This document shows positions 7,541-61,698 of a stretch of DNA of 64,000 bases, in pieces. The stretch is from assembly GCA_947034885.2 (NCBI GenBank), contig OX344750.2, positions 33,466,821 to 33,530,820 of the forward strand. Direction: 5' to 3'. The first letter of the stretch is position 1, and the number at the start of each line of letters is the position of its first letter. The stretch comes from Thuidium tamariscinum (lineage: Eukaryota > Streptophyta > Bryopsida > Hypnales > Thuidiaceae). Position numbers and translations under genes: made by a program. Under the pieces are notes generated by a model. It was given only the letters and a program-made list of their open reading frames with translations. It ran no database searches and was not told where the DNA came from.

Positions 7541-7544
7541 CTTA

Positions 7545-8600
7545 CTTCTAAAGTCCCAAGGCCATTTTCTTGCCAAAAAACATTCAAAACTATCATTTTC
7601 AATGCAACTTGAACAATATTTTTTTTTCATATCCAACTAGCAGATCTTGCACTAGACTAGTATGAAGATATTTCAAAAAAAGTTTAAGAACTTTGATTGT
7701 ATTGATCACCATATGTGAGTGTTGAAAGTAAAAAAATGAGCTATTTTGCATTTTTGCTTCTAAATTGACTAGGTTATACTTCTTTGTATCCTCTAAACTA
7801 AATTTTTTTGTATTACAAATATTGGATTGATATTTATTTATTTATTTTAAAGAGTTTAGTTGAAAATTGAGGATAAACAATTCATCCCCCAAAATGTGAT
7901 TTTCATTCTTTAAAAAATTGTTAAGTGAAACCATGTAACTATGAAATAGAAGGAAAAACTTAATTACGGATAGCTCTTAGATGAAATTGAAATACATATG
8001 GTGGAAACACCCAAAACCGTCCAAATAAGGAATTCAGCATAGTTGGAGGCATCTTTTTGTAAAAATAATATTTTTCTAGTATTAGCAAGTGAAGATTATG
8101 AATATTAAAAAAAATTAGATTTTTTGGACGCCATATGTAATTTCTATGATTTTCAAAAGTGTTGGCCCCCTAGACCATTGAAACTGTTCAATAGATGACC
8201 CCAAATTTGAATTGTAATGAAATTAGCAGTGAGCCAATGAGGTTTTGGTATGTGTCTTTTATATGCGTCAGCAAATTAGAATCAAGCATTTGGCAAACAC
8301 ATTCACTAAAGTCTAGGAATGCAATTAGATGAGTCTAGGGTCCAATGCAAGATACAAACTGTGCACGGTATTGGGTGTTTTTCTCTTAATCCCAATGGTG
8401 AAATTATTCTAGAAAGCAAACTACTCCACGTGCAATTTTTTTGAATGAAAATAGTTAAAATTGAGATTATACATTATTCAATACATTATTTTCTAAAAAA
8501 TTTGCTAAAATTGCATGCAAAATAAGAAGCTTCATAACCTTTTCATCACTCATTTAAATGGAATGAATCAAATGATTTCATACAAACAAAAATACAACAT
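7545..8600. mobile_element. Decayed relative of the TTAA-flanked element at 38,173-39,103
   Basis: The start (CTAAAGTCCCAAGGCCATTTTC then GCCAAAAAACATTCAAAAC) aligns by eye with the left end of the 38.17-kb element. Later blocks also match in the same order: CATTCTTTAAAAAATTGTTAA near 7,905, AATCCCAATGGTGA near 8,388, and AATGGAATGAATCAAA near 8,560. The TTAA termini are no longer intact. No protein is encoded. Confidence 0.45.
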
Positions 8601-23542: not shown

Positions 23543-25042
23543 TTAACCCCTAAATGCCAAAGGCACCAGAATCTGGTGTTCGCAAAACTTTGAAGTTAAA
23601 TAAAACCTAACAAAGTTGCTGTTTTTAGTAGTTTATGTCTGGAAAGTTCTTTTAGAAGTCTAGTTGCAATGTCAAAAATGTCAAAAATACAATCTAGAAA
23701 ATGTGGGATGCTAACTTCATCCCATGAAATGGGACTAGTGGGCTGGATTTACCGTAGGGGTAAACACTGAAATTTTTTATTTTTTGGAAAATTTTATTTT
23801 TTCAAATTCTGAATTCATATTTGGAATCAGGGACCCCAAATTAACTAGGGAGGGCCTTCAAAATACCCAAGAATAGGGCACAAAACCAGGGGGCTTTTTC
23901 ACTTTTATCTTGGATAACTTGAGTTTTACCCCACTGGACCCACTTTGTAGTTAGCATCCTGCCTAGAAAATGAATGATAGTGATTTTTTTATTCAAGATT
24001 TTGTGCAAGGGTACCCATTGCAATCTTGACTTTTCAGTCATGAGAGCTCTTGAAAATGAGCCTCAAATATGTTAGGTCTTCGAGAAAAAATCACATTCAA
24101 AATTCATTTACAAAAATTGTAGAGTAGATTTTGAGAAGCCATAAATTGATTGGAGTTAAATACGTTAGGCCCCTTAATCTCATATTTTTTCAATCACCAA
24201 CTTTTTACATTAGAAAAATTTTGAACACTCAAAGAGGCCTCTAAAATGGCCTCAATTGGGGTCCTCAATTGGATTTAAATGCGTATTTGTTAAAGAAAGG
24301 ACAATTTTTTTCCCTTATTTCCACCCATTTTGACATCATGATGTTTATAAAGGTACATGTTTTTTTATTAGATAATAGGACATTAGATGCTTCTTGTCAT
24401 TCAAATTTTAAGTACATTAAGGGATTATTTTATTTGGAGAAGGATAAATTTGGTGCAATTAAGTACTAATGGCTCATGTGTTTTTAGTACTATGAGTAAG
24501 ACTTTTTTTTTTATAAGATCACTGGTACTTCATGCTCATGATGTTTGCACCATGAAATGCCTTTTATTGGACAATAGAACAATAGGTACTTTTTGTCATC
24601 AAGTCCTTGGTACTATAAGTGAAATTTTTACATTGACAAATTCAAAAGTACTTGATGAGATTCACACAAGGTAGCGACACATATTGTGTACTAAGGCTAT
24701 CAACTCTAGCCTTCAATAAATAGCTTTGCATGTCAATTCTTAAGGGCCTCAAGTTGAGGGTTCAAAATTTCTCTAATGGATTTGACTTGCAATAAGAGGG
24801 TAGAAACACTTTACATCACTTTTGCAAATTTAACATCCTCATGGTCAAACATTATAATCTTTCACTCCATAAGTGATATTATTGTGTTTTCTTTTCCTAC
24901 GCAATCTCTAACATGTCCAATTTGAATTTGTATGGTTACAATTTACAAAGAATTTATACAACTTATCAAAATGTTGGCATTTTGTTAAATTTAGACTAAA
25001 TTTTCAAAAAACTCAAAAGAAACCAAGGGCATTTAGGGTTAA
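23543..25042. mobile_element. Putative piggyBac-type non-autonomous element, 1.5 kb
   Basis: The stretch is bounded by TTAA at 23,543-23,546 and 25,039-25,042. Inside the left TTAA is CCCCTAAATGCC; inside the right one, read inward, CCCTAAATGCC. A TTAA target and ends starting CCC are hallmarks of piggyBac elements. No transposase ORF is present. The match is short and TTAA is common in AT-rich DNA, so the interior may be composite. Confidence 0.4.
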
Positions 25043-25756: not shown

Positions 25757-25988
25757 TTAACCCTTAAACGACGCCGAAGCCACTTTTTGGTCGATGAACT
25801 TCAAGGAATCTTTCTATGTAGGACAGACTGATTGCATTCATTCATCCTCGGAATTAGGGGTGGACAAGGAAGATCTTCTACAGTGCTTTGACTTCCAACG
25901 TGTATTTTTAGATTTTTTTGAACTAATGATTCCCACAATATCAAAATTCCTCAATTCCACGGCCACCGGCTCGTCGTTTAGGGGTTAA
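25757..25988. mobile_element. Putative piggyBac-type MITE, 232 bp
   Basis: TTAA stands at both ends (25,757-25,760 and 25,985-25,988). The inward ends are CCCTTAAACGACG and CCCCTAAACGACG, 12 of 13 bases alike. The CpG-containing TIR and short length make chance unlikely. No coding capacity. Confidence 0.55.
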
Positions 25989-26000
25989 TTTGAATTTTTC

Positions 26001-26250
26001 ACAAGAAACACTTGTCCTTTTTTTTGTCCCCTTGACCTCCAACAAGTAGTTTTTTGCTTATAACTTTTTCATCTTTTGTCCTATAGTCTTGAAATTTGAA
26101 ACAGAGGTCCATACAAAAGTTTTACATGTTGAGTAATTTTTCCATTTAAAAAAAAAAAGTTTACTATTTTTAACTTGCCCCCAATTGGATGTCTACCTCG
26201 GCCATTTTGAGGGTTTTAGTCCTATTTTTTACCCAAAAATCGGCGAATTT
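26001..26250 (-). mobile_element. Partial copy of the AAGAAACACTTGTCC element family
   Basis: From ACAAGAAACACTTGTCC at about 26,001 this matches the reverse complement of the right part of the element at 28,498-29,226. Shared blocks include GTCCCCTTGACCT, TAGTTTTTTGCT and GCCCCCAATTGG. Similarity fades after about 26,250 and no opposite end is seen. Confidence 0.55.
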
Positions 26251-27600
26251 GAAGCCACAAATTAGACAAGTTGGAGGTCTACTAACATTACAAGGATTGA
26301 CAATGAGTTTTAATGAAATAGCAACATGGTTGTTGTGTACAAGGGGTCAAAGTGACATTCCTTTGTGCAAAGGCTATGAAGAGGGAAAAAATTTCTTAGA
26401 AGAATTTTTTATTGTAATGTGAGCACCAACAATCCCCAAATTGGCTCATTTGCGCTTCAAATCTACCAAATCAAATCTGGAGCAAAATGTACATGGGGAA
26501 TTTTTTTTCAAATCGGTAATTTGAGCCAAAATGTATTGAGGAAATTCTATGTGTTAGCTAGACTCCACATTCATCCGTGCTCGAAGTTGCGGACACATAC
26601 TATTCACAGATTTGGCATTAGTCCCGGAGTAATATCAACTATAGATCAATCATTGGGCAGCACAATCCAGAGCATTTAATTAGCAACCTATAAACTAGGT
26701 TTAGGGGGAGGGGTTGACAACATCAACAAAGTATTTAGCAGTTTGCTACTGCTAATACCACTCCTGCCAAGCGAGAGTAATTGCACTTAATCTCTGCTCG
26801 CCATCATGTACTTTTGGATCGTTGGTCCTTGTTGCATTGCTGTTGCGATCCCCGCCTTCTACCTTCTTGATTCTTGAGATTTGTGCCTTGAGCAATTTTG
26901 CAATTTGTAATTTGGCACTTATTGTTTTTTTAAGCAACATATTCCGTGGTTCTCAGTTCAAATCTCCATGGCGCCACTTCTAGAGATCTAAGCTACTATG
27001 AATTTTGGAGGCACTTGAAGCTTTCTTGCATTCACTACAATTTGAGGCTTTGTGGGATTGGTGGTTGTGAGTGAATGCTTGAACTTCTGAAGGGGCTCCA
27101 AGCTTCCTGAATTTAGACTTCAGAGGTGCAGAGAAGTGTAGGGAGTTCTTGGTCTCTCAATCCTCTCATCTTTTAGATTGGTGCTTCAACAATGGCCAAC
27201 AACACCGCATGGGTTTTTGCTTTCAAATTTAAGCCTTCTTGTATTGCCTGGTCTATACAAGTTTGTTTATCTTGTCTAGTTGCCTTTGGTATACTCTGGA
27301 CTTTGCATTCCCAATTTGATTGCTCGTGAACTTGATCGCCCGTGAACTTAGTTGATCTTGATTCGATTGTATTGTTTGCACGTGTTGGCTTCTAGATCTT
27401 GTGTCAATTTCTTTGTTGAAGTGTTGATCTGTTGAATTTAGTATTATAGTGTATTTCACAATCGATGGCTCCTTGCTTGAAGTTGCCTAAAAACTTCAGG
27501 TTTCGTTGTTTTGGTTCTAGCCGAAATGTTAACGAGGTTGGGAAGTATATAGTACAAAATCGAGTCTTGAATTAAGTGAGTGTGTGCACAAGGTGACCCA
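26251..27600. other. Intergenic DNA before the hAT relic
   Basis: No recognisable gene. From about 26,690 base use becomes less AT-rich. Part of this may be the 5' flank or leader of the hAT relic, but no terminal repeat was found. Confidence 0.3.
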
Positions 27601-28497
27601 CATTTCAGACACACGATTGTCTCAATCTCTCTTGGCCAAATCCTCTCGATCTGCCTTCCGAAGATACTGTGATGTCCTTTGGCTGTGCTGATCCCGTGGT
27701 GGAGTTATCGGATGACAAGGAGTGTGTCACCAGGAAGAAGAAGTGAGGGATCGCTGCCAATTCAAAGAAGAAGAAAACTATAGCGGAAACCATCACCAAG
27801 AATTGGTAGGAAGTGTAGGCTTGCAAATTTCTATGGGCAGAGGGAGAGTTCGATTCTAATGGCAACTTATTTGGTGTCGTTTGCGTAAGTTGTACAGCCA
27901 TGACAGGGGGAGGAAGGTGCTCGTACCAAAATTGGACAACCTTAAAAAACACAAAGGCAAACAGACGTGTATAGAAGACAACATACTACTTTTGCATCTC
28001 AAGAAGGGCGACGTCTTCAGGAAGGTGGATTGCAAGCATGCAAAATTTTACAAGCTCTGGGTAGGCCAGTAGCATGGCGGTACCGTGGCGGAGCAACTGA
28101 ATGTGGGTTTGGACTCCAAGTTCAAACGAAAGGGAGTGTAGTTCTCTTACCTTTTTAGATTTTAAGTCATAGACGTCCCATGTGTGATTATGAGAGGCAG
28201 CACTTCCTATTAAAACATTTAAAGGTCAAAAACTTTCCTATAAAGCATTGGTTGGAGAATTTTGGCTGGGAAATGAGTGAGCACTTGCACTCTATTGTTC
28301 TTACTACATTTAAAGAAGTTGTGCAAAATGCTAGGGTCATATCTATCAACATTGATGAGGTTACTGTTGTAGACAATATTTGTTGGGTTGGTGTTCATAT
28401 ATATGCTATGCAAGGTTGGGAAAGGAAGCCACACTTTGCTTCACTTGTCTTATCTTGCCGAAAGTGGATCGGCAAACCATTTGACTGATGTGCTTAT

Positions 28498-29226
28498 AGG
28501 TCGTGGCAAGAAACACTTACCGGTTTTGGCTCAAAATGGCTCAAAATCAGTGAATCCTGTGAGTCCTGTGACCCTTTGAAATAAATTTTTTTTAAATTGA
28601 AAAAAATATGGATAATTTGAAGAGCAATGAGAATATCATGTCTCTTGAAATTCAGACCTAAGAAATTTTTTCTCCAAATGTTATAGACAATGGAAAATAC
28701 AATGAAAATAGCTCTTTTTTCACTAATTTGATAAAAATAGTAAAAAAATTCAAAAAATGAAAATAAAACATTCATTTTCTCTCCAAGAAAAGGTCTTTCT
28801 TTTCCAACAAATTTCATCTTTGGAAAAAATAAATTCTATTCTCTACACTTGCGCAAAGTCAGCCACTTTGACGACATGTGGAGGTTGAACAATATATTAT
28901 TTTCAAAAAATCTCTTTGTGGTATTGTGTAAGTTTAGGTGAGGTCCTTGCATGCCAATTTTCAGCTCAAAATTTGCATTTTTGGGTCAAAAATAGGACTA
29001 AAACCTCCCCAAATGGCTAAAGTAGGCACCCAATTGGGGGCAATTCTAAAATAGTAAACTAATTTTGAAAAAATTGAAAAAATTACAAAAAGTGTAAAAC
29101 TTTTTTAGTCACCTTCATTTCAAGTTTCAAGTCAAATGAAAAAAAGATGCAAAAGTTATGAGCAAAAAACTACCTCCTAAAGGTCAAGGGGACAAAAAAA
29201 AGGACAAGTGTTTCTTGCCAAAGCCC
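28498..29226. mobile_element. TIR element of the GCAAGAAACACTT family, inserted in the hAT relic
   Basis: The left end is GGCAAGAAACACTTACCGG and the right end, read inward, GGCAAGAAACACTTGTCC. The element splits the hAT transposase between ...LTDVLIG and ...ALMNKGGL. It is non-coding. It shares its ends and internal blocks with 50,977-51,709 and, in part, 26,001-26,250. A possible 8-bp duplication (CTTATAGG / CATGTAGG) matches at six positions only. Confidence 0.7.
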
Positions 29227-30136
29227 TCATGTAGGCTCTTATGAACAAAGGAGGTCTTTCTTGTGCTAGCTTGCTAGTAAGCTGATTTGTTTTAGGGCGG
29301 ATGGGATGAGTACTTTTCAGGAGGCACGGAATGGAGTAGCAATGCAGATGAGAGCAAAGTGGGCCCCCTTTGCGATGGGAGCTAGTTGCATGAGCCATCA
29401 ACTCAACCTGGTTGTGGAGACTCTTACGAAGTATCCCATGAAATCTCGGTTGGAAGGCTTTTTCTAATCCATATACTCCTATTTCTGTCGTAGTAACAAG
29501 CATCATGCTAAGCTTGTGAAACTTACTAATCTCATTGAAACTAAGGCAAACAAGATGGTTCTTACATAATGTTAAGACACGATGGATCTCCATGAGGAGT
29601 CCTAGATTGCGGATCATGGAAGAATACACCACTCTCATGGTGAAAATGGGTGTTGATATGAGTGGTGGTTCTGCTCATAAATTTGTCCCTGATGCCGCTG
29701 AAAACTTTGATCAGTTGTCTGATATAGAGATATTTCTATCTGTAGCCTACTTCATACCTCTTGTCAATATTGTGCATGCTTTGATAAAGCTTTCTCAAAG
29801 CCATGATATATTCGTATGTGACTTTTTTCAAGCACTGAAGCTTTGCCAATCGGAGTTTGTTAAAATGTTCCTAGACATGACCAGCGCTTACAGCGAAGAG
29901 GATTTCTCAGCGTACAATGATATTCTGTCTTTGCAATGTGCTCAGATTCTTTTGCAACAGAGGGACTTATCTAGTGATTTGGGTTTGTCACATTTGGTGT
30001 TCAGCTTGTCTATTACGACTGTATACGCACGGTGCCATGAGAAATTAACCGGGGTGGAAATTTTTGTCACCCGAAAGGCATTCAACCGTGTCCAAGACGT
30101 GGTTGAGTGGCAGTTCTTAGGTATTTTATGTACTTG

Positions 30137-30330
30137 TTTTTCATTTTTATTTCAAATTTTTTTCTTTTTGTGTTTTGCATGTTATGTATGTGTTGTTTCT
30201 TAGTTACCTTAAACTTTTCATTTTTATTTCAAATTTTTTTTGTCTTTATGTTTTGCATATCATATATGTGTTGCTTCTAAATTACCTTAACTTTTCATTT
30301 TTATATCCAATTTTTTTTGCTCTTAGTGTT
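30137..30330 (+). repeat. Tandem repeat of about 78 bp in the intron-like part of the hAT relic
   Basis: Blocks of CTTTTCATTTTTATTTCAAA, then TTTTGCATRTYATRTATGTG, recur near 30,137, 30,215 and 30,293. They lie between donor-like CTTAG|GTATTT (30,119) and acceptor-like AATTGCAG (30,453). Confidence 0.65.
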
Positions 30331-31235
30331 TTTCTTTTGTTTTTCTTAGTGTTATGTATGTATTGTTTTGATTGTAAATTCATGAATCATGATAGTTGTA
30401 TTGGAACTTCTGTGTGTGTTTCTTATACAATGTACTGTGCTTCTAAATTGCAGGCACTGAGTAGTAAGAACTTTCACGGTCAGACTTCACTAACTTCATT
30501 GTTTTTTTCACTGACATTATGCAATTCAAATTCGAACTTTTTTTGGATCGATATTCATGTGTATGGTTTTCATGACTCGCAAGACTTGAGCCTATCAATA
30601 TGCTTTGATGGCATGTCATTCACATGTGATTTGTGAACTTTTGTGCCCATGATAGATATTGCTCAATCACTGAGTGATGAATTGGATTGTAGATTTCCAC
30701 AACTGGAATTGCTAGATTGTTTTTGGCATCGTGTATCCCCAATATTGGAGGCATGAAGGGACTGACGAGAGCTTTGCTCAGTGCTCACCACTTGTTGGTG
30801 CTCAAAAGTTTTTACTATCATACTCGCTTAGTTGAGAATAACTAGCCTTTACATGAAGGCAATACTGCCTATACAACTCCTGCTATGCTTTTAGGTGAAA
30901 ATTTGGACCTTCAACAGGATCTATTTAAATTGACCATGAAGGCCAACTCAAACATTGCCTACGCCCAAGCCTTAAATATCAATCCTGTGATTAAACTGTG
31001 GCGCAAATTGGTGTAGTCACGGCATTTGTCTAGGCTCATTTTGGAATACTTCTTACTTGCTAATAGGGTGTTGTCTAGTGCTTGGCTCAGTAAAAAATGA
31101 ACGTTTTTTTTCCACATTGAAATTCTTGAAGTCGACACAAAGAAACAGATTAGGTGGGCACTTACCTCTTGTAGTCCGTATGTTTGGGCAATGTTATTTT
31201 TCCATTGAGGACTTTCCATATAGAGAGGCTATCAA

Positions 31236-32344
31236 CTCATAGAAAGCAACTGGGTGAATGCAAGAAACACTTGTACTATTTGTTGTGTTTCGTCACACCC
31301 TAGTTTTTGATTTTTTTTTAGTCATAACTTTTGTGTTTTAGTTCTAAATGACTCAAAATTTATATGGAAGCTACTCATAATTATTATGTATCTATAATGA
31401 ATTTTGGAGATTCTTAAAAAATAATTTATTATTTTTAAGTAGCCCCGAAAATTTCTCACAATACTCAATTTAGGGGTTCTTAGTACCATTTATCTCTAAA
31501 AAAACGAATTTTGAGCTAAAATTTGGAGAGGATGGTTTCTTATTAGACTTGTACCTAAAGTCTAAAGGAATTCTAAGAATACTTATTTTTAAGTGTTGTA
31601 GAAGTCCACAAAGAGAGCTTCATTCTACATTTTTTTCCAAAGGTTTAAAACATTATTTTGGTGAGTTTTTTGGTCAAATCTCATCACCAAAAAGTTTTTT
31701 CAAGTTTAATATTTTTATGTATTTTTTAAGAGAAGAATAATATTTTTACAAATTAAAATGTCACAAGTTGTATTTTCTTCACCGGAACTTTGGACATAGA
31801 ATTCTCATAGAATTCTGGTGAAGAAAATACAACTTGTGACATTTTAATTTGTAAAAACTAGGATTATTTTTTTTCAAAATACATAAAAATACAAAACTTG
31901 AAAAAACTTTTTGGTGACGAGATTTGATAAAAAAAACTCACCAAAATAATGTTTTAAGCCTTTGGAAAAAAATGCAGAATGAAGTTCTCTTTGTGGACTT
32001 CTACAACACTTAAAAAATAAGTATTCTTAGAATCCGTTTAGACAGTAGGTACAAGTCTAATAAGAAACCATCCTCTCCAAATTTTAGCTCAAAATTCATT
32101 TTTTTGGAGATAAATGGTACTAAAAAACCCTAAATTGAGTACTGTGAGAAATTTTCGGGGCTACTTAAAAATAATAAATTATTTTTTTTAAATCTCCAAA
32201 ATTCATTATAGATACATAATAGCTATGAGTAGCTTTCCTATAAATTTTGAGTCATTTGGAGTTAAAACACAAAAGTTATGGCTAGAAAAAAAGTAAAAAA
32301 CTAGGGTGTGACAAAAGGCTTTAAGTGTTTCTTGCATTCACCCA
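31236..32344. mobile_element. Foldback TIR element, about 1.1 kb, arms about 530 bp
   Basis: GGGTGAATGCAAGAAACACT starts at 31,252 and its complement ends at 32,343. The arms, about 31,252-31,785 and 31,815-32,343, are nearly complementary along their whole length around a loop of about 29 nt. GCTATCAA stands at 31,228-31,235 and again at 32,345-32,352, an 8-bp duplication typical of hAT. The left side has 16 extra bases between the duplication and the repeat, so the exact left end is unsure. The element interrupts the C-terminus of the hAT relic. No protein is encoded. Confidence 0.75.
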
Positions 32345-32352
32345 GCTATCAA

Positions 32353-32917
32353 GGCCGGTAGGCAGGGAGATGTTTGAAATGATTGGAGTGAAGTAGTATC
32401 CTTTTCTTATGTTTTTTTCCACTACTGTAGTGTTGCCGCTTGCCTTAATCCTTAGTTTTCATGAGAATTAGCAAGCCTTACTACTCAAGTGCTCATTGCT
32501 CAATGGTCATGTTTCCTTGATCAACCTGGTTTCTTGGTTGTTTGGATGGACGCTCTGTTGCAACTTACAAGTTACAATTGGAGGAGATGCGGTAGATGTG
32601 GCTACACTGGGGCAAACAACGCTACTAAAGAGGGCGTCTGGCTATGGTGCCCAAGTTACTTTCTTAAACCCTAACCTTTAAAACTAATGTGGCTTGTCTG
32701 TGTGTGTGCAGAACACTAACATTGCACATGGGCAGTCTTGCAATATGCAAAAAGGGTTCAACTCCCTTGTTAGTGACAACATTATAAAAAGAACTTAGAA
32801 AATGGCCCTTGCACAAATTTCTGAAAGAACACTCAAAACAATTACTGTAATAGCCAATGCTTCACTTCTGATTTTATGACTTGAGCAATTCTACTAATAC
32901 ACAAAGGCAGAAGATAG
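32353..32917. other. Spacer between the hAT relic and a younger hAT element
   Basis: The first part may be the end of the hAT relic. Overlapping 61-codon ORFs at 32,489-32,681 do not resemble a family I know. Confidence 0.35.
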
Positions 32918-33107
32918 CCACAAAGCAGGGTTGCTTCCGTCGCGTCACGTCCGTCCGTCAGGATGTCCGTCTGCTGACGTGACGGGGAGCCGAGCGTCCG
33001 TCAGGATGAAATTCACGACAGAATCCGCGACAGAGGATGAAAAATCGTCGACAGGGCCGTCGACGAGGCCGTCCACCGTCGACCGGACCGTCCAGGATAG
33101 AATCGAA

Positions 33108-33300
33108 CCGATTAGGGCTAGCCGGCTGTAAACTTCAGAGCCTTGTAACTTTTGCAAAAAGTTTTCAAATTGGGCAAATGAGATGTTTTTCGGCATCTAC
33201 AGAAACTGTAGATGCCGAAAAACATCTCATTTGCCCAATTTGAAGACTTTTTGCAAAAGTTACAAGGCTCTGAAGTTTGCAGCCGGCCAGCCCTAATCGG
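33108..33300. repeat. Near-perfect 193-bp hairpin within the hAT element
   Basis: Arms of about 95 nt (33,108-33,202 and 33,206-33,300) differ at only a few positions and meet at a 3-nt loop, CTACAG-AAA-CTGTAG. If transcribed this would form a long, almost unbroken RNA stem. Confidence 0.85.
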
Positions 33301-33703
33301 TCGACGGCCTCGTGGACGGCCTTGTCGACGGTGGACGGCCTCCTCGACGGCCCTGTCGACGGTCGACGGCCTCGTGGACGGCCCTGTCGACGATGGACGG
33401 CCTCCTCGACGGCCTTGTCGACGGTGGACGGCCTCCTCGACGGCCCTGTCGACGGTCGACGACCTCCTCGACGGCCCTATCGACGGTCGACGGCCTCCTC
33501 GACGGCCCTGTTAACGGTCGACGGCCTCGTGGACGGCCCTGTCGACGGTGGACGGCCTCCTCGACGGCCCTGTCGATGGTGGACGGCCTCCTCGACGGCC
33601 CTGTTAACGGTCGACGGCCTCGTAGACGGCCCTGTCGACGGTGGACGGCCTCCTCGACGGCCCTGTCGATGGTGGACGGCCTTGTCGACGGTCGACGGAC
33701 TTC
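33293..33703. repeat. 31-bp GC-rich tandem array, about 13 units
   Basis: GTCGACGG-type unit starts fall at 33,324, 33,355, 33,386, 33,417, 33,448, 33,479, 33,510, 33,541, 33,572, 33,603, 33,634 and 33,665. The common core is GGACGGCCTCCTCGACGGCC. As 31 is not a multiple of three, the open frames across it on both strands are by-products of a stop-free, GC-rich unit. It belongs to the hAT element. Confidence 0.9.
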
Positions 33704-33836
33704 ATCCAGGCCGTCGACGACGCCGTCAGCATTCGGGACGGCCTCTGACGCGTCCTGACTCGTCACGACTGACGCGTCATGACATCCGGACGGGAAAAGC
33801 CCACGTCACGTCAGGATAGACAACCCTGCCACAAAG

Positions 33837-34500
33837 ACTCTCTTACATTCCATGTCTGTTCGCAAATTTCCCATACTGACAAAAAAAATGGGGAGTCAAA
33901 TTGCCCCCTTTTTTTTTACATAAAGTAGTTCATAGTCTTTACCTTAAAATAAAAAAAATAGCAAAAATAGCGACTTTTGTGCACGGGAATAGTAGATCTA
34001 GCTAATTGCCAAAAGCAATTTTGGGATTGCTAGTAAATACAATCTTGTTTAGAAAAACAATTTTTATTTTAAATAATTTTTTGAATTACTAAAAATGAAA
34101 AGGTCTATAACCCCTTTTTCTGCTATTTTTTACTACCAATGACCTCTGTAGTACTTTGTAGTAGTCTATAGGACTATATAGTAGTGACTAACAGTCTTGA
34201 TCTGCAGACGCCCAAAATTGATGGTTAAGATTTGCAGGTGCAATGTTGACGCAATGTACTGCCAGTATCACGCAATATTGCCAATCATGTCACCAAAAAT
34301 GTGCAGTATTTCTTGCAATCACCCTACACTTTGAGATTTGACATCAAATCTTTGAAGTAGATAATTTTATTGAGGGTTTAGATAATAAAATCCAAAAAAG
34401 ATAATTAATTTTAGAAATTATTATCATTAGAAATAGGTACAAGATGGAAAGAAAACCTATAACATTAATAAATCTAAAGAAATGAAATCACATCAATTTT
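33837..34500. other. Intergenic DNA with one orphan element end
   Basis: TTTCTTGCAATCACCC at 34,309-34,324 is the right end of the GGGTGATTGCAAGAAA family; no matching left end was found upstream. No gene was seen. Confidence 0.45.
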
Positions 34501-34720
34501 AAAATTGAGAATAGTCTAGTTTTCAATCTAAATCCTATGGACAATTTTTTTGTAAAATTGTGGAAATTGAATTCAAATTCAAATCCTAAAAGATTTTCAA
34601 GAAGTTGCTTTCATTGCCCAAAACACAAGATTCTTCATAGCTTTTGCATGAGTATTCTACATGCAATGAATCAAAGTTTTCCATGTAGATAATAATATAC
34701 ATTACAAAATAATTTTAAAA
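34500..34720. mobile_element. Fragment related to the TTAA element at 38.2 kb
   Basis: AATCCTATGG, then GATTTTCAAGAAGTTGCTTTC + ATTGCCC and CAATGAATCAAAG, follow the order of 38,730-38,815. Ends are missing. Confidence 0.35.
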
Positions 34721-36655
34721 CTTCAATGTCGACCTCTAGGTCCAAACTAGTTTAGTCAATTTTTGAATGACCTTTGGAGTTTTTGTATTGATATATGAAA
34801 GATAAACTCTATGGCTTTGGAGTACCTTTTGAAGAATCATGCCTAAAATGAAATGAAGCTAGAACTATAGTAGAGGATTAGAGTGAAAAAAAAATGGAAA
34901 AAAAATTTGGATTGAAATTTGGACTCAAAAGAATATGAGAATTGAAAGGGTCATCAAATGCCTCCAAAGTCAATTCACCAAAATGAGTTCACATTTGCCA
35001 AGACCTCTATTTCAACAAAGGTTTAGAGACTTCAAACCTTCAAAGAATGTTTTGCAAATACCTATGAATTTGTTTTTTTGTATTTATGTTTTAGAGATGC
35101 AAATACATAGCTTCTAATAGTTGTTAAAATTTCACATTTTAGGAGAAAAAAGATGAAATTACCATGAATTTTTGAGTAAAAAGTGAAACAACTCATCTCA
35201 ATTGCAACTACTACTCAAGAAATTTGAAAATCTTTGAAGATTTATATTATAGTGTCAATCATCATGATACTTACTCTTTTATTGTGTTCTTTTGGAATTA
35301 GAAAATCATCATTACATGGTTGCGAATTCAATTTCCCAAATTGTTTGTCAATGCTATATTATATTTAAAGTAGTATTACAAATGATAAACCAAATTGTAT
35401 CCAGTTGAAGGAAAAAATAACCTCTAGTAGAAATCTAATGCTTCCTAAGCCTCAAAATTTGTGTGAAAATCTCATCATTAAGGATTCTTGGACCCAAACT
35501 AGTTTCAAACTAAGCAATGTAGTTCTAATAATTATTTTGAAGTTTTGTGGGGTTTTTTGTTGTCAAGGCTTCATTGGCTATTTTTTATTTGGGTGGCATA
35601 ACTTTTACTCTTGGCCCCAATTGAAATAAAATTGAATATCTACAAAACTACTATGTTGTTTTATCTTTGAAAAACTCAAAAAATCATTTCAAAAATTGTG
35701 ATCACAATCCACTTTCCAAAACTTTGATTTTTTTGTTGAAGAAATAACAATCCTCCCTTTAGAGATTAAGGAACTCATCAACTTGATTGTGGTTGATCAA
35801 TGATTTCAAATTTTTATTATTCATAATTAACCCTTAAAGTCCAGTTGTCCTTTCTAAAGACAAATTGGATTCCAGTTAGACTACTTCAATCTTGATTTTT
35901 GTTATAATTTTTCAAAAAAAAATTTGAAGATAGAAAAAAGATGTTAGCTTCCTAGAAGTATACATTTTACTACATTTCAATCAATGCCTTGGAGCAACAT
36001 TTATGCCCCCCTTGGCTTGAAAGTGAGCCAATTGGGTAATGCAAAAAAATACCATAAAGGTCAAAATAAAATTTTCAAAATTTTGTCTCCCATAGAAAAT
36101 ATTTTTGCCTACATGGAAAGTTTTGATTCACTCTATTCTAACTAGTAATGAGAAAGTTATGGACAAACTTGTTTTTTGGGCAATTTAAGTACCTTTAAGA
36201 AAAAAAAATACTTAAGGAAATCATTTTTAAATGCAATTTCACAATTTTCAAAGGGAAAGGTTCAACAAGGTTAAATTTGCTTCTTTAAACAGTATCACCA
36301 TTGTAATAATTGTGATTTCAATTTCCATCTTATATCTATTGACTCTAATTTAGTTTTTCCTTCAATCTTATACCTACTTAGCAACCAACCATAGACCCTT
36401 ATAGGAAAAGTACATTTTAGGCAAGAATCTAGACTTTGTAGTTTTAGAAAGTCATTGAGATTTGGTGTAGTTACCTTAGCAAAGTGTTTGCCTTAGTCAT
36501 CTTTTACATGAAGGTAGTATACTATTTTTTTCAATCCAAAGCTTGGTTTTCAAATCTTGCTATCAATTTCTATAACTCATTAACTTTTTTTGATGTTTGA
36601 AATCCTAAACATATTCAATGTTTATCATTGGAAGAGGTTCAACATCTAATTGTTC
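34721..36655. other. AT-rich intergenic DNA
   Basis: No gene was seen. TTAACCCTTAAAGTCC at 35,827 resembles one end of the TTAA elements, without a partner. Short ORFs here have no family resemblance. Confidence 0.4.
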
Positions 36656-36659
36656 ATCA

Positions 36660-37215
36660 AAATGTGAGTGTTGCATGATTTGCCCCACAATCATTCAACA
36701 ATTTGGACAGACTCTCTCTCAAAAACAAAATAGAATAGAGTATATTTAATGACACTAAATCATGAATTATGGTTATGTGATTTGAATTTGATTAAAGTTG
36801 AATGATTTGCCACACAATCATTCAACAATTTGAAAAGACTTTGTATATATTTAAATTAGAATAAATTTTGTGGAACTAATTTATAAATTATAGTAATTTT
36901 CTTTGAACTTTAGATTATATCTATACAATTAAATCTACCATAGCTATTGCCAATAATTCAATATAATGTGAAACTCTTAAATTCTATAAAAAAAAGATTG
37001 CTAAGTTTTGAATGAGAAATATGAAAATTTTACAATATTGAAACCATTGACAATTTTTTAAGCCTATTCCAACAATCTAAAGGTTATTATTTGTTGTTTA
37101 AATATATAAATTCGTATTTTAATTGCCACTTTTGATTGGAAAGTCAAGTCAGTCAAGGTTTCATATACATCTATTTCCACAATCCAATTGAAGAATAAAT
37201 TATGAAAATGTCAAA
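36660..37215. repeat. Dispersed duplication, copy A (partner 50,580-51,840)
   Basis: Blocks shared with 50.6-51.8 kb in the same order include CAATCATTCAACAATTTG, AATATAATGTGAAACTCTTA and TTTGTTGTTTAAATATATAA. Within copy A the CACAATCATTCAACAATTTG phrase occurs twice (about 36,692 and 36,814). Bases 37,021-37,083 are inverted relative to copy B. Confidence 0.7.
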
Positions 37216-38172
37216 TCTAATCATTGGATTTTGAATTATTCTTTGTAAGCTACTTCTTCAAAACAAAATGATCACCTACACTCAAGGACGGCATTGAGCA
37301 AAAGTCTTAAAAACCTTGTGAGTGCAACTTGGATAGGGGTCCATTAATTTGATAATGTATAAAACATGAATCATTTACTGAGACCTCGATTGAGACTAAT
37401 AGTTCCAAAATACCTCTCATATATCATTCAATTGAAGCTTATATATACTTTTAAATTTTAAAACCCCAATCAATGGGGTATTTTTGGGCTATATGTCAAC
37501 ATTTTGGTTGCACATTATATAATGAGATTTAGAGGGTGGGTGATAGAAAGGCTAGAATCTATAAGGTTGATCAAAATTTTGCTCAAAAAAGAAACACTAA
37601 TGCCAATGTTTATTGGGATATTGTAAAAGATTTGTATTAATATTATAGGATATGTTCTAAGGATACTAGGCGTACGGGGTGCTTGACTCCAAATATGTGG
37701 ATATAAGCATGTTTTTTTGTTTTGTTTTTTGTTTTGTTTTGTTGTCCTTTCAATTTCATCACCTTCCTTGGTTGTCTTTTAGGTGTGCCCCCCTGTTTTG
37801 TTTCTACTCCATTATGCCAATTATTTGGTTCTACATTTTTTTTCTAATACTTCAAATGTTGCTTTGTAGATGCATTAGAAATAACTTGTAGAATTTTTTA
37901 CACATTTTTTTAATTTGGCGTTCACTTGTTTTTATATTGTATTTGATGTTACATCTAATGTCATTTTAAACATAAAACTAAGTGAATTTATTATCCTAAA
38001 TCCTATTTTCATCAAATCAATCTTAGTTTATCCATATAGTACTCAAAATATGCATTCTATAATATTTAAGAGTCCCCTTTTGAATTCCAACAAGATCCTA
38101 CAAAAAGGTTTTTATTATATGAATGGAAACCATACTAAATTGCTAAATATTGTGATTTTAGGTGTAGTTATC
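37216..38172. other. AT-rich intergenic DNA
   Basis: A TTTTGTTTTG run lies near 37,712-37,745. ORFs at 37,679-37,891 and 37,915-38,265 are T-rich and hydrophobic by composition; I do not think they are genes. Confidence 0.4.
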
Positions 38173-39103
38173 TTAACCCCTAAAGGACCATGGCCATTTT
38201 TTAGCCAAAAACCACTCAAAACTGCCATTTTTGCTCCATTCATCCATGAAAACAAAAAAAAGTAAAATTTTAGAATCTAACCGTAGGATCTTGTACTTTA
38301 CTTATCTAAAATCATGTGGTGAAAATTTCATGAAGTTTGACTGCATAGATTAGAAGATATGAGTATTCAAAGTTGGAAAACAAGGTTTTTTTAAACTTTG
38401 ATATGCAACTTCATATGACTTTGTCCTCCATTTGTGGAAGTATTTTACACTACGGACCTTGAATTTAAATTTTTTTCTATTGAAGGATTGAGCTGAGACC
38501 TTAGGAAAAAAAATTCAAAAAAAGAAGACTTTTTTTTCATTCTTTAAAAAATTGTTAAATAGATGAAGGTCCAAGATTGAAAGAAAATTTAAATTGCAAA
38601 TATCTTATAGATGGGATTGAAACACAATAATCCCAATGGTGAGATTGTTTTAACAAACAAAACCAACCTTGTCCAAAATTTTTTTTGGAAAAATTGTGAA
38701 AATTGCATTCACAAATGAATCCTATAAGTTATTTTTTCAAGAAGATGCTTAGATTGCCCGAAAAATAAGATTGTTCATAACTTCCACATCACTAATCCAA
38801 ATGGAATGAATCAAAGCTTCACCCGTAGACAAAAATAAGATCTATAAAGGAAAAAAATTAATTTTTTAATTTTTTTAGTTTTTTTAGATTTTTTTTTCTG
38901 CCCAGCTACATGAAAATTATACTTAAAATGGCATAACTTTTGCTTTCGGTCACCAATTGAAAAAAAATTATATTTCCACAGAGCTAATCAGTTTTTCTAT
39001 CTTATGTAAAAATTTCAAGAAAATTCATTAAAAATTGAAGTCACAAGTACCTGCCCGAAATCCCAAAGTCCCCCGAGGGGACTCTTGGTCCTTTAGGGGT
39101 TAA
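38173..39103. mobile_element. Putative piggyBac-type non-autonomous element, 931 bp
   Basis: TTAA stands at 38,173-38,176 and 39,100-39,103. Both ends read inward as CCCCTAAAGGACCA, a perfect 14-bp inverted repeat. Diverged relatives lie at 7.5-8.6 kb, 34.5 kb and about 49.9-50.3 kb. No transposase is encoded. The best-preserved member of this family in the window. Confidence 0.6.
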
Positions 39104-49799: not shown

Positions 49800-50277
49800 A
49801 TGTTGTAATAAACAATCTTCATGATCCTTTGATTTTATTTATTTATTTAAATATTAAAAATAAAGTAAATTAAAGGACTTCAAAGTTTATTTTAGAATAG
49901 AGAATCTATAATGGCCTATAAACAAAAAAAACTCATAATTTTTTACTCATTAATCCAAATGGAATAATTCAAAGCTTTCCATGCATACATCAATGAAGAA
50001 AACCATTTTCAATTCTTTGTTTATGAAAAAAGTGATTTTTCCTAATTTGCCCAAAGTCCCAAACTACCTAGTTATAAAAAAAAGTAACATATTAGGCCAA
50101 AACTTTTGACTTGTATTTACAAATGTCTTGATTTTTAGTATGTACATGAAAATATTCCTCATCCCCACCTTCTATTTAAATTTCGGACCAAAATATGAAA
50201 ATCTCTAATTACATGTACCTACCCAAAATCACTATATTGCCAAATTTAGCAAGTTGGTCCTTTAAGGATTAAGGACT
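49800..50277. mobile_element. Decayed TTAA-element relative
   Basis: AATCCAAATGGAATAATTCA near 49,950 and the right-end remnant TTGGTCCTTTAAGGATTAAG at 50,253-50,272 match 38,173-39,103. The terminal repeat is damaged. Confidence 0.4.
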
Positions 50278-58611: not shown

Positions 58612-60140
58612 ATTGCTATTGGTGAGCCCTCAAGATGGTACTTGGACCTCTGGATCCATTTTTTGCAAATAATTTGTGAAATTTAGTCAAAATTACAAGA
58701 AAAGACATAAAAAAGAGTGTTTGAAGAGACTTGGTAGTGATCTCTACCAAATTGGTGCAAAACCATCTTAGAAGGTGGAAAATTCCTAATTCTAGGAATT
58801 TCCAACATTTTAAGCCTTAAAAATAAGATTGATGGAAAATTTAGTAATTCTGAGAAGTGAGGGAAGGAAAGTTAGTCAGTCCTAGTATTTGTCTGTGCAA
58901 AATCAACCTTTTAAAGGATGCACGTGATACACTGACTAAGCCAAAAGAGTCTACTACAAGCCTGGAAGGTTTACCAAGGCCTAAATTCAATTTTTGGATA
59001 TATTGGATTTGGAAATAGAACAATTACGTGTGACTTGGAGAATTGAGATTTCAAGACATAGAAGATGGGAAATTGGAAATTGAAGACTACAGAAAGGTGT
59101 TCTCAGGGTAGAAGCATGCCAAGAACGAACAAGAATCAAACAATTGTCCAAAATTCCTGGGCATCGGGAATTAAATTGTCCAATTGGGCAAAGTAATTCC
59201 AAATTACTAAAAATAGACAAGTGCAAGATCGCGTGGAACTTACACTAAGGATCTAGGAGTAACCTAGATGTTACCCAATTTATTTCGGATTTTTTCGAAA
59301 TTCCACGTTGATTCCATGGAAAGTCAACCGCATATAAAAATATTCGTAAATTCTTAGAAAATTACGTATGATGCGGTAAAATCTCACTAAAAATTAGGAT
59401 AGGTTTTTGTGTGCTTAATAAGTGTCTAATCAAGTTTGAAGACATTCCAACATTCCCAACTACCAGAACCGGCATCGACATCGAATTTCAATGGAATTTA
59501 TAATTTGGCGGCATGTTGACTAGCGTATTAGGAGCGAATGATGTCCGACTGACGCAATTGGGGAGACATTCCTGATTCTCACAGACATTCCTAACGACCC
59601 TAGCCTGACAGATTCATCAAAATGTGCAAATCCTAAAAGTTAGATTTTTGACTTTTAATTGGAGTTACCGTAATTCCAATTTGGGCGTGCAAATGGCCTA
59701 GGAGTGAGGGATAAGGGGTCCATTAGGCAAATTGGGGTCTTCTGAAGACAATGGCGCAGACTGTTTTCCGTTTCAAGTTGTTCCCTAAAAGATAGAGAGG
59801 GTCAGCTCTTAGTTTGATTTTTTAATCGTTAATTGCGGTTAATTAAAAGTGATTTTGGAAATATCTCTTGGAAAATCAAAGATTGGATTTGGTCAAGATC
59901 TCTTTCTTGCGTAAAAAGCCATCTTTGGGCTAAAGAAAGACAATTTTTAAAATGACTTTTGGTTAATTTGCAAAATATCTACTTAAATTAGGGTTAATTT
60001 TAAAATATCTTGGGTTAAGATCTTGGATTTGATTTGGCCAAGATTTCATTAGCTAAATGGGGATGTTTCTAGAAATTTCCACCATTAAACAAATATTATT
60101 TTGGAATTACATTAGGATAGTTTAAGGGTAGAAGTAACAA
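58612..60140. other. Intergenic DNA upstream of an orphan promoter
   Basis: No ORF of note. Composition is slightly richer in GC and CpG than average for the window, so this may be part of a decayed large element. Confidence 0.35.
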
Positions 60141-60181
60141 AGTGTTTTCACTAGCAATTTACTGGGGAGGGCCCGTCCACG

Positions 60182-60195
60182 GGTATATAAGGGCC
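60182..60195 (+). promoter_or_regulatory. TATA-box core promoter candidate
   Basis: GGGTATATAAGGGC in a GC-rich setting (GGGCCCGTCCAC upstream, CCCCCTCGAGG downstream) is a strong plant TATA box. ORFs after it (60,142-60,327 and 60,206-60,517) have no family resemblance. It may drive a non-coding transcript or be a relic LTR promoter. Confidence 0.4.
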
Positions 60196-60437
60196 CCCCT
60201 CGAGGTTGCCAGTACCCTTTCTTTCGTGCACCAACACTTTGTTCTTTCGTGCTACCAACGTGATCGGAGCACCACTTGGACCAAAGGTCTTGGCCAAGTT
60301 TTGTTTGTGTTTATTATTGAACATTGAAGGCTTAGGGCCCCTTCAATTGATTCTCACTCTTTCTGGCATGCAACAGTCCAAGCCTCAAGTTCCGGTTAAC
60401 TATTGTTCGTGGAAATTTCAAGCATTGAGTCTCAAAG

Positions 60438-61095: not shown

Positions 61096-61698
61096 ATCAG
61101 CAAGGGGTCGGAGTGCAAGGGGAGTCCGGCAAGGGAGTTGGGCGCACATGGAGTCTAGGTAGGGGAAGTCGAGAGTCCAGGGACTAATCGGTATACCTAA
61201 AACTCGAATCACTTTGGAAACTCCAAAAATTAGATTTGGAATCAAAATCATGGTTGGCAGTTGTTGCGACACCTTTGTTTTTTTTTGTTTTTTTCACAAC
61301 AAATCCAACACTTAGAGTTCCAAAAATTCTTCACACATTTACTACTTTCCAACACCATAGCCAACTCTCTCTCCAAAACATTGCAAACAAACTTCAAAAC
61401 AAGAATGAGGAAGGAGGGAGAGAATTAGGAAGCTTAAGGTGAAGGAATCCTCAACCGAGAGACGATTTGCATTAAAAAACTAATTTTCAAGAGAATAACA
61501 CTATAGCAATTGATTCTTATTCTTCGGGGTTGACCCTTGAGAATAAAAAACTAATTCCTTTAGAATCCTACTATTGAATTTTATTCTCGTTCTTAAGGAA
61601 TGTTCTTTGTTCTTTGGTAGTTAGTTATTAAATAGATTCTTAGAAGATTTGGATTTTATTAGTTTTGTTTTATTAGGCCTAATAAGCCAAAAAGAAAC

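Follow-up and report, generated by a model that had tools for sequence, protein, structure and literature searches.

The 64,000-nt window, the whole stretch of DNA analysed here, contains three elements, E1 to E3, each with TTAA at both ends and terminal inverted repeats (TIRs) that start with CCC. E3 (38173..39103, minus strand) is a 931-bp, MITE-like non-autonomous piggyBac element; E2 (25757..25988, plus strand) appears to be a 232-bp non-autonomous piggyBac MITE; and E1 (23543..25042, no strand assigned) is probably an old element of piggyBac type, low in copy number and split by a second repeat. A sequence-only reading had placed TTAA-bounded, CCC-tipped stretches at these coordinates and described their TIRs as perfect or near-perfect, and both statements hold. 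The 18 terminal bases of E3 are identical at its two ends and comprise TTAA and a perfect 14-bp TIR (left end, TTAACCCCTAAAGGACCA, 38173..38190, plus strand; right end, 39086..39103, minus strand). The ends of E2 pair over 17 bases, TTAA included, with one mismatch, and those of E1 share the motif of E2 and E3 with a one-base indel (TTAACCCCTAAATGCC / TTAACCCTAAATGCC).

Scanned without gaps for inverted pairs (TTAA plus 12 bp, at most one mismatch, 100-6,000 bp spacing), the window yields seven, of which the two starting with CCC are E2 and E3. Sixty dinucleotide shuffles gave means of 0.42 pairs and 0.017 CCC-starting pairs. E1 was not picked up because of the indel in its ends. It is also composite, since a different high-copy repeat of about 571 bp with inverted ends, not piggyBac, is inserted at 24208..24778 (no strand assigned; about query 665-1237); this nested repeat has 7048 first-look candidates in the genome, of which the best 40 were scored. 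A relative of E1 elsewhere in the genome (L047) matches it at 81-88% in three blocks, has TTAACCC ends and lacks the nested repeat.

Further traces of E3 lie in the window. The sequence-only reading had listed diverged copies at 7.5, 34.5 and 50 kb, and the first of these is indeed an eroded E3 relative (7541..8572, plus strand, left end placed by eye at about 7,541) that matches E3 at 7,900-7,996 and 8,387-8,572, has lost its TTAACC end, and has a second repeat inside it at about 8,151-8,388. The other two are only short internal matches: a fragment at 34545..34697 (plus strand, 75% over 157 columns) and a weak 31-bp match at 49947..49977 (plus strand, 90%, E 8e-6). TTAACCC motifs are present at 35,827 and 53,264, where orphan ends had been noted.

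Genomic copies and the TTAA boundary

Both E3 and E2 are high-copy in the genome. The best 40 scored matches to E3 are full-length at 95-100% and include the window copy, and the best 40 to E2 reach 93-100%, spanning 1-230 to 1-232. Both exact 17-bp ends of E2 occur in 42 genomic elements, the window copy counted, and a reversed-pattern control found 0. In 18 fetched copies (10 of E3, 8 of E2) similarity ends at the TTAA, with matching flanks in 0/110 E3 and 0/72 E2 comparisons, so similarity does not run past the proposed boundary. TTAA stands at both ends of 9/10 fetched E3 copies and 6/8 fetched E2 copies, and it abuts the E3 right-end 21-mer in 267 of 273 exact genomic copies. These elements have the TTAA target-site duplication of the piggyBac superfamily.

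Unoccupied paralogous sites are imperfect evidence, not clean. Two lie in the window: a site related to E3 copy L030 (C7) at 59935..60237 (plus strand), with a single TTAA and no element, matches the joined flanks of that copy at 90.8% over 304 columns, and one related to E3 copy L037 (C9) at 61290..61589 (minus strand), also with a single TTAA, matches at 79% over 311 columns. When the joined flanks of 40 elements were searched against retrieved DNA, 10 matched an unoccupied relative. The relative has an exact single TTAA for three of these 10 elements, and the other seven read TTGA/TCAA, TTAT, TTAG/CTAG, TTCA or TGAA. For the window copy of E3, TTAA is in register at one of five unoccupied paralogues and one base out of register (TTTAA, judged by eye) at two; the remaining two lack it (TAAA, TTCA). 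Mutation can explain the inexact sites, because the repeat copies have diverged by about 8-33%. No unoccupied site spanning the window copy of E2 was found. The prediction of empty sites that retain TTAA is thus borne out in part: unoccupied sites occur and some of them show one TTAA, but several lack the exact tetranucleotide.

piggyBac transposases and the probable source of E3

We searched the genome with the PF13843 (DDE_Tnp_1_7) profile and obtained 116 scored matches among 659 candidates; the scored matches reach E 6e-80 and are present on all ten large contigs; the same profile found nothing in 14 control genomes. A phmmer comparison with transposases of solved structure gave matches to piggyBat (3e-27) and the 6x67 transposase (1e-22). 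We take PDB 6x67/6x68 and 9c0f to be Trichoplusia ni piggyBac and Myotis piggyBat. From 20 loci that we read, 12 transposases were aligned, and all 12 have an intact DDD triad. Near the C-terminus, where a cysteine-rich domain is typical of the superfamily, most of 12 sampled frames show Cys/His motifs by a loose pattern, with no Pfam match there.

The transposase is enclosed by TTAACCC-ended inverted termini in 18 of the 20 loci, usually 5.0-5.6 kb apart; locus L016 has a best end pair of only 12/18, and locus L022 has none. At least 13 of 18 bases match between the inverted TTAA ends in 18/20 loci and at least 14 in 17, against 9/400 and 0/400 shuffled loci, respectively. In all 18 elements, 9-13 of the 13 positions after TTAA agree. 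Because the search pattern for these ends had TTAA and CC built in, the evidential weight for the autonomous elements falls on the shuffle control and on near-identical pairs with unrelated flanks. Three such pairs are 99.94%, 99.76% and 99.6% identical, and their 400-bp flanks do not match. Such close copies at separate locations imply recent transposition, and transposition may still be ongoing. A DDE_Tnp_1_7 transposase with matching termini, which the first reading had proposed to look for, is therefore abundant in this genome, and the transposase, the DDD triad and the CCC-starting TIRs of the piggyBac superfamily are all present.

E3 can be connected to a specific source. Its ends align with those of autonomous element L017, in inverted orientation, at 70% over 311 columns and at 74% over 145, and its right end (39,103) is the counterpart of the L017 end that lies upstream of the transposase. 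Judged by these ends, E3 is an internal-deletion relative of the L017/L028 subfamily. It has the properties of a MITE: it is short, it contains no transposase (tblastn with seven sampled transposases found no similarity in the window at E up to 0.01), and its ends are common to an autonomous element. E2 is short and high-copy, and E1 does not qualify as a MITE because it is low-copy. None of 18 sampled autonomous elements has the exact ends of E2 or a BLAST match to it, and no direct autonomous partner was found for E1; the end motif is what assigns both to piggyBac.

Superfamilies other than piggyBac also use TTAA targets, so these ends might belong to one of them (e.g. Kolobok) whose tips look like those of piggyBac. 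We consider this very improbable: transposases inside elements with such ends exceed the curated DDE_Tnp_1_7 cut-off, and the ends of E3 are homologous to those of L017, which carries this domain. For E3 the alternative is largely refuted, and for E2 and E1 the evidence against it is the tip motif. The TTAA boundary, the transposases, and the homology of E3 to L017/L028 support the original piggyBac reading, and E1, E2 and E3 are almost certainly non-autonomous piggyBac elements in a genome that also contains full-length ones. In the mechanism we envisage, the DDD transposase from the full-length elements would recognise TTAACCC-ended inverted termini, acting in trans on E2 and E3; the element would be excised at TTAA, presumably seamlessly, and inserted into a new TTAA, which would become duplicated.

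A conserved upstream ORF and a subterminal palindrome

A conserved open reading frame, ORF1, lies upstream of and adjoins 94 of the 116 scored transposases, and it has no convincing Pfam or PDB match. E3 and L017 share a subterminal palindrome, AGTCCCCTCGGGGGACT (39067..39083 in E3, minus strand). We found no published description of either feature in piggyBac. We give roughly even chances to an undescribed two-gene piggyBac lineage that encodes a DDD transposase and ORF1, a small conserved helical protein outside the recognised families, kept by purifying selection and common to deeply diverged subfamilies. Most members would have a binding-site-like palindrome around nt 20-40 of the end upstream of the transposase, and the second protein would be needed for transposition, as an accessory factor. 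Such a two-protein requirement resembles other two-gene DNA transposons and differs from insect piggyBac, which has a lone transposase.

A somewhat less probable reading is that ORF1 forms the transposase N-terminus and is connected to the rest through splicing or +1 frameshifting. Several sampled elements have ORF1 immediately upstream of the open transposase frame and overlapping it; in 49/84 genomic pairs the transposase frame is +1 relative to ORF1, and in four related elements ORF1 is followed by a conserved AG|GTGAG. However, the two share a frame in 17/84 pairs and use the third frame in 18/84, the ORF1 stop codon precedes GTGAG in three of the four related elements, and L015, L024 and L012 have an ATG in the transposase frame where its conservation begins (by eye).

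The host and known piggyBac systems

piggyBac is best known from animals, chiefly insects, which could suggest contamination or a non-plant genome. This is most unlikely: a dirigent gene (PF03018, 2.5e-16) lies in the window, there are 49 chlorophyll a/b-binding matches genome-wide, and all ten large contigs carry scored transposases. One LHC protein matches two long fused LHCI chains (9vfj) first and then land-plant LHCII chains; among matches of ordinary length, 8htu and 7xqp, which we take to be from the moss Physcomitrium, lead by a small margin (436 vs 428 bits). These gene matches identify the host as a land plant and probably as a moss.

The T. ni piggyBac TIRs start with CCC, as here, and T. 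ni piggyBac and Myotis piggyBat share the TTAA target and a sequence-homologous DDD transposase. The elements described here differ from both in their conserved upstream ORF1 and in the palindrome at the transposase-upstream end. With T. ni piggyBac given as 2,472 bp, the autonomous elements are about twice as long and have a longer transposase frame. Animal piggyBac-type MITEs are described from corals (PMC2872659) and Helicoverpa (PMC9033116); the coral MITEs are likewise reported to be short, non-coding and high-copy, with transposase made elsewhere, whereas the host here is a land plant. A repeat table for the C-fern Ceratopteris, itself a land plant, has a PiggyBac line (1,230 copies of about 100 bp each, 122 kb altogether; PMC6890710), whereas the elements here are complete and some are near-identical. 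piggyBac had been called poorly documented in plants; PMC8086355 already refers to piggyBac-like elements of plants, but the scale and two-ORF layout found here appear to be new.

Our data point to a land plant that houses a large piggyBac population, apparently active in recent times, with MITEs that can be assigned to a named autonomous source subfamily. In related plant genomes, TTAA MITEs may be unclassified or mislabelled. piggyBac is one of the main transposons for seamless gene delivery, and practical knowledge of it derives mostly from insects and bats. The population described here could yield transposases and termini suited to plants, for tagging and for excision that leaves no footprint, and a conserved accessory ORF, if true, would alter the view of piggyBac as a transposase-only system.

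Short TTAA-ended elements and their copies

The sequence-only reading described three stretches with TTAA at both ends and inverted termini, and all three are confirmed: E1 (23,543-25,042), E2 (25,757-25,988) and E3 (38,173-39,103). The ends of E3 share 18 identical terminal bases, TTAA counted, those of E2 share 17 with one mismatch, and those of E1 carry the same end motif with a one-base indel between them. An ungapped window scan for TTAA-started inverted pairs, allowing at most one mismatch in 12, found seven pairs, of which the two CCC-started ones are E2 and E3; over 60 dinucleotide shuffles the means were 0.42 for all pairs and 0.017 for CCC-started pairs. Inverted repeats at 171-808, 239-740 and 31,435-32,168 (with inner pairs) have arms that include TTAA-started matches, and were rejected as piggyBac-like for want of CCC tips. 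A GC-rich tandem repeat of VDGLLDGPVDGRRP-like units occupies 33,274-33,819, and both of its strands carry long open frames.

E1 is composite: ~24,208-24,778 is a different repeat, which is missing from an E1 relative on contig C10 (L047). This high-copy repeat (~571 bp; 7,048 first-look candidates, 40 scored) has ~30-bp inverted ends (CATTAGAGAAATTTTGAACC... in the relative L048). Compared by eye with L047, it appears to be inserted in E1 with no obvious target duplication, and it is possibly another DNA transposon family.

In the 363-Mb, 19-contig assembly containing the window, we scored 40 of 6,597 first-look candidates for E3 and 40 of 2,478 for E2, candidate totals that are not copy numbers. 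All 40 E3 copies, the window's included, span bases 1-931 at 95-100% identity, and the E2 copies span 1-230 to 1-232 at 93-100%; a 41st E3 row (71%, bases 6-931) adjoins one scored copy, and two extra full-length E2 rows (89% and 75%) adjoin two. A check of the kind proposed in the same reading took ten E3 and eight E2 copies with 150 bp of flanking sequence: similarity ran as far as TTAA, and same-side flanks of fetched and window copies gave BLAST matches in 0/110 E3 and 0/72 E2 comparisons. The left TTAA is intact in 9/10 fetched E3 and 8/8 E2 copies, and the right in 10/10 and 6/8. The right terminal 21-mer of E3 occurs exactly 273 times in the genome, 267 times followed by TTAA (reversed control pattern, 0). 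Both exact 17-bp ends mark 42 E2-type elements genome-wide, including the window's, of 219-232 bp (control, 0), with at least two types of interior start. The window's E3 and ten of its nearest copies diverge from their majority by 0.65-1.83%, a range that overstates youth because these are the nearest copies.

Full-length elements and their target sites

Searching the genome for the piggyBac transposase domain DDE_Tnp_1_7 (PF13843) gave 116 scored matches of 659 candidates (best E 6e-80, many frames uninterrupted) and 0/14 in control genomes. We read 10 kb around each of 20 matches and searched for end pairs with the pattern TTAA[CT]CC...GG[GA]TTAA, into which TTAA and CC are built. A TTAA-ended pair encloses the transposase in 18/20 loci at ≥13 of 18 inverted matches and in 17/20 at ≥14, compared with 9/400 and 0/400 shuffled loci. 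In this search the best pair at L016 reached 12 of 18, and L022 had none; for L018 the second-best pair was used (16 of 18), which makes its length exactly equal to that of L019. Sixteen of the 18 elements measure 4.95-5.62 kb, with L026 at 6.6 kb and L010 at 7.9 kb. By phmmer the transposase matches piggyBat (3e-27) and the 6x67 transposase (1e-22), and the DDD catalytic triad is present in 12/12 aligned transposases. On contig C8, two equal-score transposase copies face each other in head-to-head orientation, separated by a few kb (23,933,884, minus strand; 23,941,055, plus strand).

Four full-length pairs are 99.94% (L018/L019), 99.76% (L023/L025), 99.6% (L014/L015) and 97.5% (L017/L028) identical, and their 400-bp flanks show no match between partners on either side. 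A conserved frame upstream of the transposase, ORF1, encodes an identical 139-aa domain of the L018/L019 type at no fewer than eleven (≥11) genomic places, so this subfamily probably amplified recently. Near-identical elements in unrelated flanks and identical ORF1 copies are evidence that transposition was recent, though they do not prove that it still goes on.

The expectation that a transposase would be found with matching termini held for E3, whose two ends match both ends of the L017/L028 elements in inverted orientation (311 columns, 70%; 145 columns, 74%). Because both ends match, E3 is an internal-deletion relative of that subfamily. By eye, both the ATGCC(C)AAAG tip of E1 and a subterminal palindrome recur in the L017/L028 group. 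None of the 18 autonomous elements gives a BLAST match with E2, whose assignment to piggyBac rests on TTAA, the motif at its ends and a degenerate subterminal one, GCCATTTT.TGG.

Unoccupied sites bore out the predicted TTAA in part. When the joined flanks of 40 elements were compared with the sampled DNA, ten gave a match that crossed the join, and in three of these the site has a single exact TTAA: L030 (window 59,935-60,237; 90.8% over 304 columns), L037 (window 61,290-61,589; 79%) and L029 (in L018; 75%). The remaining seven (L031, L038, L010, L018, L020, L023, L028) matched repeats of 67-83% identity with TTGA/TCAA, TTAT, CTAG/TTAG, TTAG, TTCA or TGAA in place of an exact TTAA. Joined flanks of the window's E3 matched five unoccupied places genome-wide (82-89%): TTAA is in register in L055, TTTAA with the TTAA shifted one base (by eye) in L056 and L057, TAAA in L053 and TTCA in L054. 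No spanning empty site was found for the window's E2 in the genome search (40 scored of 2,523 candidates). The joined flanks of L020, L023 and L028 all fall at one position in a single repeat family, where its window copy (8,151-8,388) reads TTCA (TGAA on the opposite strand); this family is a possible preferred piggyBac target.

A conserved upstream frame and a subterminal palindrome

Two shared features go beyond the original observation, ORF1 and the palindrome. The ~130-aa ORF1 domain (alignment A2: ten sequences, 17-65% identity to the first) was detected by profile in 18/20 loci, ten of which were in the profile, and was not detected in L017 and L028, the parent subfamily of E3. Two genome searches with single proteins, each scoring 150 candidates, yielded 148 and 141 matches. 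The first gave 58 pairs of an ORF1 with a scored transposase no more than 8 kb away, the ORF1 being upstream on the same strand in 58/58; in the second this arrangement held in 51/53, the remaining two coming from a head-to-head element pair. Both searches combined place an upstream ORF1 beside 94/116 scored transposases. Since scoring covered 116 of the 659 transposase candidates, many ORF1 matches lack a scored neighbour.

Across L019, L011, L013 and L009, substitutions concentrate at third positions of the ORF1 frame in two stretches, ~nt 661-1,080 and 1,381-1,440, and the pattern moves to the transposase frame from ~1,560. The L015/L024 comparison gives an ORF1-frame signal at ~781-1,020, a mixed one at 1,081-1,560 and the transposase frame from ~1,621. 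This bias points to purifying selection on both frames, as judged from substitution patterns. That ORF1 is the start of the transposase and not a separate protein is a credible minority reading. A conserved, splice-donor-like AG|GTGAG directly follows the end of ORF1 in L009, L011, L013 and L019 (~nt 1,490-1,510, L019 numbering), preceded in 3/4 by the ORF1 stop codon. ORF1 has no convincing match in Pfam, PDB sequences or PDB folds; an AlphaFold2 model of the L019 domain is mainly helical, with good overall confidence by pLDDT and pTM.

The palindrome, with perfect arms of ≥5 bp, lies within 60 bp of the 5' end, as the elements are listed, in 14/17 elements versus 17% of shuffled ends. Among the autonomous elements listed, 12/14 are positive, 11/14 at ~nt 20-40, and their opposite ends have it in 1/14; the cases are not all independent, because the motif is common to the related L011, L013 and L019. 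The palindrome that E3 shares with L017 sits at its other end (39,103).

Host and place within the superfamily

The host's identity as a land plant is well supported by one dirigent gene in the window, which also has MATH-domain genes, and by chlorophyll a/b-binding genes in the genome. One chlorophyll a/b-binding protein matched two long fused LHCI chains first and, among ordinary-length chains, 8htu and 7xqp best by a small margin; these we take to be from the moss Physcomitrium. The host is likely a moss, though this is not proven.

The view that piggyBac is poorly documented in plants needs qualifying, since its occurrence there is already in print. In the portions consulted, published work reports piggyBac-like elements from plants, with reference to a survey, and gives PF13843 as characteristic of their transposases (PMC8086355), counts 1,230 PiggyBac copies totalling 122 kb in a fern (PMC6890710), names piggyBac among plant superfamilies (PMC10794571), lists plants among the sources (PMC10813416) and places the superfamily in most eukaryotic lineages (PMC9499001); other portions concern fish elements and constructs (PMC6431247) and mariner-type elements in a moss, with no piggyBac counted (PMC7466625). 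Among the papers that the literature searches listed, we recognised none describing a bryophyte with a piggyBac population both abundant and recently active, nor one describing a conserved second ORF in piggyBac.

Ordinary piggyBac cut-and-paste is the best reading of E2, E3 and the full-length elements: the latter would produce a DDD transposase, which would shift both them and the short E2 and E3 copies between TTAA sites. E1-E3 are new elements within the known piggyBac superfamily and, with no such description in those sources, the autonomous elements seem to be a new form of piggyBac.
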